From Muribaculaceae bacterium (lineage in GTDB: Bacteria > Bacteroidota > Bacteroidia > Bacteroidales > Muribaculaceae): a stretch of 39,337 bases of DNA. The position numbers and the translations under genes are program-made. Of the stretch, positions 36,482 through 39,337 are shown in pieces. Position 1 is the stretch's first letter, and each line of letters opens with the position of its first letter. Under the pieces are notes generated by a model, which worked only from the letters and a program-made list of their open reading frames with translations, searched no databases and was not told where the DNA came from. Location: contig RYWL01000010.1 of assembly GCA_003979155.1 (NCBI GenBank), positions 1,462-40,798 of the forward strand, read 5' to 3'.

Positions 36482-36512
36482 GGATTAGGATTGATGATTG
36501 GTTAGATTATTG

Positions 36513-36520
36513 CAAATGTA
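36513..36520 (-). promoter_or_regulatory. Candidate -7 box for the GH127 gene
   Basis: TACATTTG on the minus strand matches TAnnTTTG, 31 nt before the GTG start. No clear TTTG lies 19-20 nt upstream. Confidence 0.45.
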
Positions 36521-36548
36521 AGCAAAAATCCCGAAATTTTATATGCAT

Positions 36549-36789
36549 TTGTCAAACAAAACAAACATGACTCTGACAAAAGCGGAAAAATGCAGTCACT
36601 ATTGAGCGATATCGAGAATGGGAGTGTAGGATGCGCGTTATGCACATACAACACCAAAAAGAAGGCGGAAACAATCTGCGCATTTGTCAGTTGACATCTT
36701 CCCCAACTTCGTGCGTTTACATTGACTGATAAACACTATATATTTTGCTTAGTAAAAAGATTCTTTGTAATTTTGTCAAAAGTTGTCAA
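36549..36789. promoter_or_regulatory. TTGTCA repeat cluster, candidate operator for the XRE-methyltransferase
   Basis: TTGTCA occurs at 36549-36554, 36684-36689, 36773-36778 and 36783-36788 on the plus strand and at 36579-36574 on the minus strand. The copy at 36684 is part of the inverted repeat TGTCA-GT-TGACA (36685-36696). The last two copies are 10 bp apart, one helical turn, and cover the -7 box and transcription start. This is where a helix-turn-helix repressor would be expected to bind. The link to the fused HTH domain is an inference. Confidence 0.45.
36744..36775 (+). promoter_or_regulatory. Promoter of the XRE-methyltransferase gene
   Basis: TTTG (36744-36747), 20 nt, then TAATTTTG (36768-36775) match the Bacteroidetes consensus. 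Predicted start of transcription is near 36782, 18 nt before the ATG at 36800. This also rules out an upstream start at 36722. Confidence 0.75.
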
Positions 36790-36799
36790 CATTAAAAAT

Positions 36800-38179
36800 A
36801 TGATTACACTCGGTTACATATTAAGGCGCATACGAGAGGATAAACAAATGCCTTTACAACGTGTTAGCGAGTCTTCTGGCATTGATGCCACGCTTCTCAG
36901 TAAGATAGAAACCGGGAAGCGAATTGCTACTACCGAACAAGTTCTAAAACTTGCCCATGTTTATGAATTTGATGATGCAACAACACTTCTTATCCAAAGG
37001 CAGAGCGATGAAATAATTAGCAAACTTAATTCTGTCGATTCTGACATTGCGCTTAAAGCACTTCAAGCAGCAAAAGAAAAGGTAGCTTATGGTTCGCAGT
37101 ATTTGTCTCTTTTTATGGAGGCAAACTACTCTAAGCCTATCGCCTTAGAGAGTCGCAGGTATATCGGCAGTAAAACGAAACTCATTGATTGGATTATGGA
37201 TACCATCAGACAAGAAACCGAGGATGTCCATACTTTCTTTGATGTTTTTGCCGGTACAGGTGTGGTAACTAAAGCTGCCCTCAAATCTTTTGATTACGTT
37301 TTTACCAACGACTTCCTGCACTCCAATAACATTATTTATAAAGCGTTTTTCGGAGACGGAGATTTCGACGAAATTAAGATTGGCGATTTTCTTGATAAAT
37401 ACAATGACATTGACCCTAACTCGATTTCCGAAAACTATTTCTCAATAAATTTTGGCGGAAAGTATTTTGAACATGAGGTTGCTAAATTGGTCGGATATAT
37501 TCGCCAAGACATTGAAGACAATAAAGAATCATTGACCGAAAAGGAGTATTGCATTCTTATCGCGACCCTTATATACAACATAGATAGGTTGGCTAATACT
37601 GTCGGGCATTTCGAAGCGTACATTAAGAAGCCGATTAAGCACCAGCCTCTAAAACTTCGTATGATTGAAGCAGAATCATATGATAATATAGCGATTTTCA
37701 AACAAGACTCCAATCTACTTGCAAAAAGTCTCACCGCTGATATTGCTTATATCGACCCACCCTATAATTCCCGGCAATATTGTAGATTTTACCATGTTTA
37801 TGAAACACTGGTAAAATGGGATATGCCTCAATTATATGGGGTCGCCTTAAAACCGGCGCCTGAAAATATGAGCCGCTATTGTACTTCTCGCGCTGTTGAT
37901 GCGTTTGAGGACCTTATTTTCAACCTTAATGCCAAATACATAGTAGTATCTTACAATAACACCTACAACTCAAGGAGTAGCTCATCAGAGAATAAAATCA
38001 CTCTTGAACAGATAAAATGCATTTTAGAGAAATGCGGCCGCACTCATATATACGAGAGTTCGCATCGCTTTTTTAATGCCGGGAAAACTGATTTTAGCAA
38101 CCATAAGGAACTTCTATTCATTACTACCGTAGATGAAGAATATAAACGTAAATCGTTCGCCTCTATTTTATGTGGGTGA
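36800..38179 (+). CDS. XRE-type helix-turn-helix fused to an N6-adenine DNA methyltransferase (D12 class)
   Basis: 459 residues from the ATG at 36800. Residues 3-58 form an XRE-family helix-turn-helix (LGYILRRIREDKQMPLQRV, then SGIDATLLSKIETGKR), and a short helical linker follows. Residues 117-450 are a D12-class adenine methyltransferase: RRYIGSKTKL (119-128), the SAM-binding FDVFAGTG (147-154), and catalytic DPPY (319-322) in DPPYNSRQYCRFYHVYET. It should methylate adenine N6 in a specific site. The HTH probably lets the protein repress its own promoter, since XRE proteins act as controllers in many restriction-modification systems. Codons are AT-rich, unlike the genes to the left, which suggests transfer. 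It overlaps the next methyltransferase gene by 47 bp in another frame. Confidence 0.92.
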   Translation: MITLGYILRRIREDKQMPLQRVSESSGIDATLLSKIETGKRIATTEQVLKLAHVYEFDDATTLLIQRQSDEIISKLNSVDSDIALKALQAAKEKVAYGSQYLSLFMEANYSKPIALESRRYIGSKTKLIDWIMDTIRQETEDVHTFFDVFAGTGVVTKAALKSFDYVFTNDFLHSNNIIYKAFFGDGDFDEIKIGDFLDKYNDIDPNSISENYFSINFGGKYFEHEVAKLVGYIRQDIEDNKESLTEKEYCILIATLIYNIDRLANTVGHFEAYIKKPIKHQPLKLRMIEAESYDNIAIFKQDSNLLAKSLTADIAYIDPPYNSRQYCRFYHVYETLVKWDMPQLYGVALKPAPENMSRYCTSRAVDAFEDLIFNLNAKYIVVSYNNTYNSRSSSSENKITLEQIKCILEKCGRTHIYESSHRFFNAGKTDFSNHKELLFITTVDEEYKRKSFASILCG

Positions 38180-39041
38180 TAAATATAAGTTGATTTCAGA
38201 AATCAAACCCCACTTTCCCACCGACATCAGGCACTTCGTTGAGCCATTTGTCGGCGGCGGTTCGGTTTATTTGAATGTTAATGCTCAGGATTTCTTCCTA
38301 AATGACATTGACTCCGAGGTTATAAAACTTCATGAAATGCTTAACTCCTTTGTCGGCAAGGAACAGGAATTCTTTGATATGGTATGGAATATTGTAGACT
38401 CTTACGGTCTTTCTTGTTCTGCAAGAGAGGACAGAGTGCCAAATGACCTTAAGGTTAAATTCGTAAAAACATATTTCGCCGAATTTAACCGTTCGGCTTT
38501 CCTTAAACTAAGAGAAGACTATAACAATAGCCACCGCGATGATTACTTAATGCTTTATATTCTATTAATATACGGCTTCAACCGCATGATTAGATTTAAT
38601 AAGTCCGGCAAATACAATCTTCCTGTTGGAAATGTGGATTTCAACCAGAATACCATTGATGCTTTAAGAAATTATTTTTCCTTAAATGCATCAAAGGAAA
38701 CACACTGGTCTGCTTTAGACTTTGAAACATTCCTTAATGGGCTTGACTTGTCGGAACAAGATTTAATTTATCTTGATCCGCCATATCTCATTACATTCAG
38801 CGAATACAATAAGCTTTGGAATGCAGAAACAGAGCAAAGGCTATTAACCATTTTAGACCTGCTTTCCGCTCGAAATATCCGCTTTGCTATTTCAAATGTT
38901 ACTCACTATAAAGGTAAAATCAACTCAATTTTCCTTCAATGGGCAGAACGTTATAATATCCATCCCATAAAAAGCAACTATATTAGTTATCACGATAATA
39001 CAATTAAGAGCTTCAACGAAGTTCTTGTGACCAACTATTGA
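38133..39041 (+). CDS. N6-adenine DNA methyltransferase, Dam/D12 class
   Basis: 302 residues, a stand-alone D12-class enzyme. The order of motifs is PLFYVGDKYKL at the N-terminus (residues 9-19), the SAM loop VEPFVGGGSVYLN (36-48), a target-recognition part (about 60-185, containing YGFNRMIRFNKSGKYN and PVGNVDFN), and catalytic DPPY (215-218). It differs from the fused enzyme upstream, so the locus has two separate adenine methyltransferases. That is the usual need when the site is asymmetric and each strand must be modified by a different enzyme. The start at 38133 lies inside the end of the previous gene, which suggests coupled translation. One base separates it from the nuclease gene. The target sequence is unknown. 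Confidence 0.92.
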   Translation: MKNINVNRSPLFYVGDKYKLISEIKPHFPTDIRHFVEPFVGGGSVYLNVNAQDFFLNDIDSEVIKLHEMLNSFVGKEQEFFDMVWNIVDSYGLSCSAREDRVPNDLKVKFVKTYFAEFNRSAFLKLREDYNNSHRDDYLMLYILLIYGFNRMIRFNKSGKYNLPVGNVDFNQNTIDALRNYFSLNASKETHWSALDFETFLNGLDLSEQDLIYLDPPYLITFSEYNKLWNAETEQRLLTILDLLSARNIRFAISNVTHYKGKINSIFLQWAERYNIHPIKSNYISYHDNTIKSFNEVLVTNY

Positions 39042-39042
39042 T

Positions 39043-39312
39043 ATGGCAGTTTCACAATATAAACCACTCTTGTTTACAACCACCATGCGAAATCCCGCAC
39101 GGTTGAAGCAAATGCTCTTTGTCTTAAACAAGTTTGCAGGTCAAATACTAAATGATAAATTAGCACAAGGTATTGTCGCTGAATGTATTCGCTATGGCAT
39201 TTACCGACCGACAAAACAGTCGGCTTCAATAAAGGAGAAATGGAATACAAGCCAGAAAGGAACTTTTAGCAAAGAACTTCTCACTAAGAGCTTGTTTAAA
39301 AACGATTGTTAA
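39043..39312 (+). CDS. AlwI-like type II restriction endonuclease, N-terminal part ending at an early stop
   Basis: 89 codons before TAA at 39310. The beginning (KPLLFTTTMRNPARLKQML, then a GQILNDKLAQGIV segment and YGIYRPTK) resembles the N-terminus of AlwI-family restriction enzymes, which normally have roughly 500-600 residues. It starts one base after the second methyltransferase, the expected place for the nuclease. The stop comes far too early. If one A is removed from the AAAAA run at 39298-39302, the frame continues open to the window edge (reading TIVNRSEFSERN). So this may be a frameshifted gene, a sequencing error or a real remnant. The family assignment is moderate, as only a short part is visible. 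Confidence 0.5.
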   Translation: MAVSQYKPLLFTTTMRNPARLKQMLFVLNKFAGQILNDKLAQGIVAECIRYGIYRPTKQSASIKEKWNTSQKGTFSKELLTKSLFKNDC

Positions 39313-39337
39313 CAGAAGTGAGTTTTCGGAGAGAAAT

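Follow-up and report, generated by a model that had tools for sequence, protein, structure and literature searches.

An adenine methyltransferase with a probable built-in controller domain and a candidate operator over its own promoter in an AlwI-type operon of a Muribaculaceae bacterium

Helix-turn-helix (HTH) domains at the N-terminus of methyltransferases in restriction-modification (R-M) systems are best known from cytosine enzymes, as the initial annotation of the DNA studied here had stated, and the enzymes named in the available parts of three papers (PMC3978073, PMC3874152, PMC12707154) are indeed cytosine methyltransferases. The first of these names M.SsoII, M.Ecl18kI, M.EcoRII, M.ScrFIA, M.MspI and M1.LlaJI as fusion repressors, and the other two describe such regulatory cytosine methyltransferases as repressing themselves via the HTH. 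Controllers fused in frame to a nuclease (C-REase fusions) have also been described, with one Bacteroidota case, in Niabella (Liang and Blumenthal 2013, PMC3850674, in the portion available). In RM.MhoVI of Mycoplasma hominis, a homologue of HgaI, an XRE gene precedes two methyltransferases, M1 and M2, and then a nuclease (accessible text of PMC12376442), and HsdC of Mollicutes (PMC5282649) and RptR of Gammaproteobacteria (PMC12255303) are small regulators that, in the excerpts at hand, bind repeated sequences in the promoter of the R-M system to which they belong. In this study, we focus on a stretch of 39,337 nucleotides (nt), hereafter the window, from the draft genome of a Muribaculaceae bacterium (GenBank assembly GCA_003979155.1, 1.76 Mb, ~76% complete; contig RYWL01000010.1, positions 1,462 to 40,798, in our numbering G000:C24:1462-40798; compared loci carry the prefix L). 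The last 2.5 kb of the window hold an AT-rich operon of two adenine methyltransferases and an interrupted restriction endonuclease, here called M1, M2 and R. Judged from sequence comparison, M1 is probably an N6-methyladenine (m6A) methyltransferase that also acts as autorepressor of the M1-M2-R operon. Its promoter and domains are laid out as follows.

36744..36747, + strand: -33-like TTTG, 20 nt before the -7 box; also seen by eye in other loci, not in L040
36768..36775, + strand: -7 promoter box TAATTTTG (TAnnTTTG)
36773..36789, + strand: candidate operator TTGTCAAAAGTTGTCAA, two TTGNCAA half-sites 10 base pairs (bp) apart
36800..38179 including the stop (coding to 38176), + strand: M1, fusion of an XRE HTH and a D12 adenine methyltransferase, 459 residues, ATG start
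36800..37093, + strand: controller domain, residues 1-98, matching whole stand-alone XRE regulators of ~100 residues
37160..37882, + strand: D12 methyltransferase domain of M1 with FAGTG and DPPY (PF02086; fold match to E. coli Dam)

The 459-residue protein had initially been read as an XRE HTH followed by a full D12 adenine methyltransferase, and both a domain search and a structure prediction recover these two parts in one chain. Residues 4-64 contain above-cut-off matches to the Pfam models HTH_31, HTH_19 and HTH_3, and MethyltransfD12 covers residues 121-361 (1.2e-31). The DPPY motif of D12/Dam adenine methyltransferases is present as D319 P320 P321 Y322 and is invariant in 7 aligned rows; together with PF02086, it places M1 in the D12/Dam class and not in the cytosine-5 (C5) class of the documented regulatory methyltransferases. 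The AlphaFold2 model of M1 (mean predicted local distance difference test, pLDDT, 77.6) has a confident HTH core and a Dam-like domain, the best match of the methyltransferase part in the PDB being E. coli Dam. Residues 78-111 are poorly placed, and this loose stretch recalls the flexible linker of M.SsoII mentioned in the available part of PMC3978073. Modelled alone (pLDDT 89.7), the HTH has an XRE-type five-helix fold resembling ClgR, DdrO, C.BclI, C.Esp1396I and C.AhdI, with no Foldseek E-value below 0.0016 and with the matches to the controller (C) proteins at 0.005 or weaker.

The controller domain aligns end to end, at 45% identity, with stand-alone Bacteroidota regulators of about 100 residues, and these free regulators head type I, II and III R-M operons. 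Across twenty of their loci (L098-L117; second downstream frames scanned in 10 of 19), a methyltransferase or restriction gene was found among the first two downstream frames of at least 150 residues in 18, and the enzymes that follow include C5, N6_N4, N6_Mtase/HsdM, Eco57I-like, HsdR, type III and IIG types; one exception, L098, has an N6_N4 methyltransferase as its third gene. The same R-M context is seen in all three Bacteroidota records opened from 20 plasmid matches, and one free-regulator locus (L059) stops at a contig end. Often just a few bases separate the regulator from the next frame, or the two overlap, so that an in-frame fusion would be an easy step. In the ~76% complete genome of the window, no free paralogue of the regulator was found, M1 being the sole homologue detected. 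Three free homologues match Control_protein models of PADLOC (8.8e-8 to 2.1e-5), with the window domain at just 0.0067, and a profile of fused and free domains reaches C.AhdI (1.2e-6) and C.BclI (2.6e-5), behind other XRE regulators such as DdrO. M1 shares with C proteins (C.AhdI, C.BclI, C.Esp1396I) the five-helix fold, the place at the head of an operon and a candidate operator at its own promoter, but whereas a C protein is small and separate, the controller here lies inside a methyltransferase, with a single candidate operator across the -7 box. It also differs from the regulatory cytosine methyltransferases in that its HTH matches an entire free Bacteroidota controller.

Promoters of Bacteroidota follow a -33/-7 consensus, and comparison of loci reveals a conserved candidate HTH site over the promoter of M1 itself. 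The first half-site shares the TTTG of the -7 box, and the site ends 10 nt before the start codon. The fused-type pattern TTGNCAAAANTTGNCAA has one exact match in the draft genome, at 36773-36789; no second operator or C-box pair was found in the window at one mismatch or fewer, a weaker second site being possible. The promoters of the first fused loci have little in common beyond the ~45 bases that precede the start codon. A motif trained only on 21 stand-alone promoters, TTGACAAATATTGTCAAG (TTGACAA-N3-TTGTCAA; L058, L061 and L062 excluded from the stand-alone set, and L098 and L100 also from the learning), scores 9.7-25.5 in 12 of 13 fused loci (-9.2 in L120), and 6.9 or less in all 16 M1 promoters without this HTH, a chosen subset of rows that leaves out distant relatives (e.g. 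L049-L051, L063-L068). The consensus TTGNCAANNNTTGNCAA is matched at 10 or more of 12 positions in 12/13 fused and 0/16 HTH-less loci (Fisher 2.5e-7, or 9.6e-6 with 11 Bacteroidota rows, relatedness not being corrected for). Among hold-out stand-alone loci, picked from the order-search matches listed, 19 of 20 reach the same threshold, compared with 2.3% of shuffles; in the sole miss, L231, a variant whose halves are GGACA/TGTCT can be seen by eye. On plasmids, three of three loci reach it, at 12, 10 and 11 of 12 positions. All 13 fused loci have a TAnnTTTG box no more than 70 nt from the start, its TTTG being the first half-site in 12/13, and HTH-less M1 loci have the box in 6/16 and the operator in none. 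Over 12 loci, mean pairwise identity is 0.84 in the operator, a figure inflated because rows were picked by and anchored on the pattern, and 0.29, the chance level, at -60 to -31, the flank figure being the informative one. Judged by these comparisons, the candidate operator goes with the HTH and not with the methyltransferase. Coupled in this way to an HTH that matches free controllers heading R-M operons, it supports the initial proposal that the controller is built into one of the adenine methyltransferases. Like M1, the regulatory cytosine methyltransferases combine an N-terminal HTH with an operator over their own promoter, and, as far as the available part of PMC3978073 goes, the M.SsoII site AGGACAAATTGTCCT has by eye the same GACAA/TTGTC half-site cores, with a spacer of 1 bp in SsoII versus 3 bp here.

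Several observations concern the free regulators and their promoters. GGACA half-sites mark a sub-class of the operator candidates (promoters L102, L108, L109, L115, L212, L231) that is closer to the M.SsoII site. The second exception among the twenty loci, L100 (4385-4996; also L077), reads as an HTH fused to an MNT-like nucleotidyltransferase antitoxin with a small gene behind, and several frames of 200-225 residues from the order search may resemble this fusion. In the family of the window, free HTH relatives precede a TOTE conflict protein (L053, 5271-8108) and a PDC-S01 candidate (L054, 5371-6666), the operator found elsewhere being absent from both.

Fusions, full or end-cut, were found in 7 of 397 genomes of the family and 7 of 393 of the order, the present genome included in each, and in 1 of 395 of the phylum, namely the present one. 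Three loci from a separate search are copies of family-search loci, which leaves 13 distinct fused M1 genes (the window, L037-L042, L118-L123). Identity to M1 of the window is 50-88% for the other 12, all 13 pass a Pfam HTH cut-off, and M2 and R follow in 12/13 (L042 is cut by its contig), with R reduced to a fragment in the window and matched weakly, at the C-terminus, in L205. Among loci without the HTH, L043, L044 and L206-L208 have M1-M2-R, with R of L206-L208 ~27% identical, R is weak in L209, and L045-L048 and L210 carry M2 with no R match. HTH queries (E-value 0.01) detect no free controller gene in L043, L044, L045, L047, L048 and L206-L210, and these queries also miss the diverged HTH of L202, the locus of L120; none was read upstream in L043 and L044. 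On the tree of M1, HTH-bearing and HTH-less proteins are interleaved, and well-supported branches force at least three changes, so that the domain appears to have been gained or lost repeatedly. In L118 and L119, stops close to the C-terminus of M1 were judged to be natural ends of the protein.

Sequence comparison thus establishes the domains, the gene order, the homology to free controllers and the coupling of operator candidate and HTH. Some points weigh against M1 as autorepressor. With M1 as sole query, C.AhdI is reached at just E 0.71, and the best-known C proteins both activate and repress. Both the TTGNCAANNNTTGNCAA consensus and the width of the TTGACAAATATTGTCAAG motif were chosen after viewing both sets, and the hold-out of 20, although the cleaner test, includes the near-copies L226 and L230. 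The fused loci are related, so that 12/13 does not stand for 12 independent events, and start codons were set by rule. In stand-alone loci (n=23), the box is present in 18 and the strict joined operator-box in 5; 13/23 of these exploratory promoters reach 10 of 12 matches and 21/23 reach 9, and the site of L106 and L109 is ~70 nt away from the start. L120, whose HTH is the least similar to the other fused HTHs, combines a sound HTH (HTH_3, 1.8e-8) and a -7 box with no operator, and the score of 6.9 of the HTH-less promoter L045 is also unlikely in shuffles (0.016).

The least unlikely alternative is a switch of the C-protein kind, in which the HTH first activates and then represses and so delays R. 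The C-protein matches of the fold (C.BclI, C.Esp1396I, C.AhdI) and the Control_protein matches of three stand-alone homologues point in this direction; however, the lone operator lies over the -7 box and not upstream of the promoter, with no second site in the window at one mismatch or fewer (a weaker one may exist), and M1 and R appear to share one operon, which leaves no obvious route for activating R only. Such a switch is improbable. Still less probable is that fusion and operator are an inherited relic that no longer functions. The interrupted R of the window, one in-frame stop in R of L037 and the missing operator of L120 would fit such decay, but M1 and M2 are open in the window, the operator is kept beside a flank at chance identity, and R is unbroken in L038, L039, L040, L041, L043 and L044. 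Least likely of the three is that the HTH helps M1 to hold or find its target DNA, the promoter repeat belonging to another cellular regulator: DNA-binding domains on methyltransferases can serve recognition, and HTH-less relatives keep the same operon, as if the domain were dispensable for modification, yet the motif also precedes free HTH homologues heading unrelated enzymes, is missing before HTH-less M1, and has one exact genome match, which argues against a global regulator.

For M1 as autorepressing methyltransferase, we infer the binding of the operator, the sign and strength of the regulation, its timing and the target site. The N-terminal domain would be a captured Bacteroidota R-M controller, the D12 domain would methylate adenine on one strand of an asymmetric site, and M2 would serve the other strand. 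Probably as a dimer on DNA, the HTH would sit on TTGNCAA-N3-TTGNCAA over its own -7 box and exclude RNA polymerase, so that rising M1 would shut the M1-M2-R operon. A newly arrived operon would be fully on until methyltransferase suffices, and R, as the last gene, would stay low. With operator-binding and methylating domains in one protein, M1 might also sense the modification state of the cell: unmethylated sites, in a naive host or in incoming phage DNA, would pull M1 off the operator and re-open the operon, and full methylation would send it back, an idea that we regard as doubtful. On that reading, since one operator class precedes free controllers of type I, II and III systems across Bacteroidota, cross-talk between the fusion and further defence operons of the cell would be expected to be possible too.

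The rest of the operon, and the end of the contig, which is also the end of the window, consist of the following.

38133..39041 (coding to 39038), + strand: M2, second D12/Dam-like adenine methyltransferase, 302 residues
39043..39287, + strand: R, interrupted restriction endonuclease gene of the AlwI family, 5' part
39288..39337, + strand: end of a multi-copy, insertion-sequence-like repeat, with TAA just before it

The initial annotation had also described this end of the window as an AT-rich R-M locus with a second D12 methyltransferase and the start of an AlwI-like nuclease, and each element is confirmed. GC content per kilobase is 0.48-0.58 before 36000 and then 0.46, 0.38 and 0.37 in the last full kilobases. 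M2 matches MethyltransfD12 (1.2e-31) and the Dam subfamily TIGR00571 above its cut-off, its coding part overlapping that of M1 by 44 nt. The third open reading frame (39043-39312) has no Pfam match but is an N-terminal nuclease fragment according to PADLOC (REase_II PDLC03507, 2.2e-15, residues 4-81), and the complete R of ~530 residues in the relatives L039 and L040 matches PF09491 RE_AlwI (2.5e-37 and 5.6e-35). PADLOC places M1 and M2 among type II methyltransferases, with one half of the double-length models PDLC03292 and PDLC03287 matching M1 and the other M2, a pattern expected if each enzyme protects one strand of an asymmetric site. Two adenine methyltransferases thus adjoin a nuclease gene in the window and its relatives, as in the AlwI-family layout, and the type IIS-like system proposed at first is upheld in its domains (two PF02086 matches) and its AlwI family (PF09491 in relatives). 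The view that the nuclease merely runs over the window edge falls, as the contig stops there too and the sequence from ~39288 on belongs to a multi-copy repeat. Homology to R ends near 39287. From the last 50 bases, a 32-base segment has 15 sites in the genome when 0-3 mismatches are allowed (14 exact), and the last 51 bases have 12 sites; all eight fetched copies sit at most a few bases away from a contig end, with TTA or TAA just before. Given these multi-copy tail bases at contig ends, this looks like an insertion sequence inside R at ~39288 or an assembly break at such a repeat. The repeat is probably an insertion sequence at which the assembly breaks as well. A natural end of the nuclease at 39312 is rejected, because relatives reach ~528 residues and the tail is repeat. 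R beyond residues 1-82 was not found in the ~76% complete genome. With R interrupted, M1 and M2 probably now act as methyltransferases without a partner nuclease in this strain. On the 3' side of R, the 86% relative L037 has a weak match to GIY-YIG and a frame with DUF4357 (L004, 10842-11682), which may be parts of a single gene broken by stops or a frameshift.

HTH-methyltransferase autorepressors and controller-nuclease fusions are known; new, within the accessible text of the literature searched, is the adenine version with two methyltransferases. No report of a controller fused to an adenine methyltransferase was found there, nor of the TTGNCAA operator family, which the C-protein survey of Sorokin et al. 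2009 may list. As the cited portions describe them, regulatory cytosine methyltransferases are C5 enzymes, whereas M1 is a D12 m6A enzyme, one of two in an AlwI-type operon. C-REase fusions, like M1, join a controller to an enzyme of its own R-M system, but the partner described there is a PvuII-like nuclease and not an adenine methyltransferase. In RM.MhoVI, the regulator is separate, its role is called unclear in the passages available, and enzyme family and phylum differ; HsdC and RptR are likewise, in the text at hand, separate proteins with other binding sequences in other phyla. AlwI-family plasmids of Firmicutes (Lactococcus, Staphylococcus, Leuconostoc) also carry two D12 genes and then the AlwI nuclease, with M1 47-52% identical, yet they have no Bacteroidota-type XRE and no such operator. 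M1 would thus be an adenine version of a regulatory methyltransferase, with an operator predicted at base resolution. More generally, a Bacteroidota controller family is predicted to use one operator class (TTGNCAA-N3-TTGNCAA and variants) at the head of the main R-M operon types. Direct comparison of the free with the fused forms makes it testable how a controller gene joins an enzyme and how this affects the timing of restriction.

A phage or mobile origin of the fusion was considered and rejected, as residues 1-85 are covered in 0/40 viral-contig relatives. One match in a phage collection covers the HTH (MT836408.1, L092, labelled 'Bacteriophage sp.'). It reads as a piece of bacterial chromosome: besides pentose-phosphate genes and trmD (named by eye), it carries M1-M2 together with a large frame that resembles a nuclease. 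The promoter is identical to that of the bacterial locus L123, and the two M1 proteins differ at 2/447 residues; the record was dropped as a duplicate and counted once, as L123. Related HTHs are also fused to an N6_N4-type methyltransferase of ~385 residues (Pfam on L061) in L061 (4580-5740) and L062 (4795-5952), where the neighbours read as ordinary chromosomal genes, no nuclease was noticed and no operator was seen by eye. In the Firmicutes plasmids L093 (4860-6092), L094 (4792-6024) and L095 (4758-5996), M1 has another N-terminus that is HTH-like by eye and reaches no Pfam cut-off; it may represent a second controller fusion that arose independently within this enzyme family.

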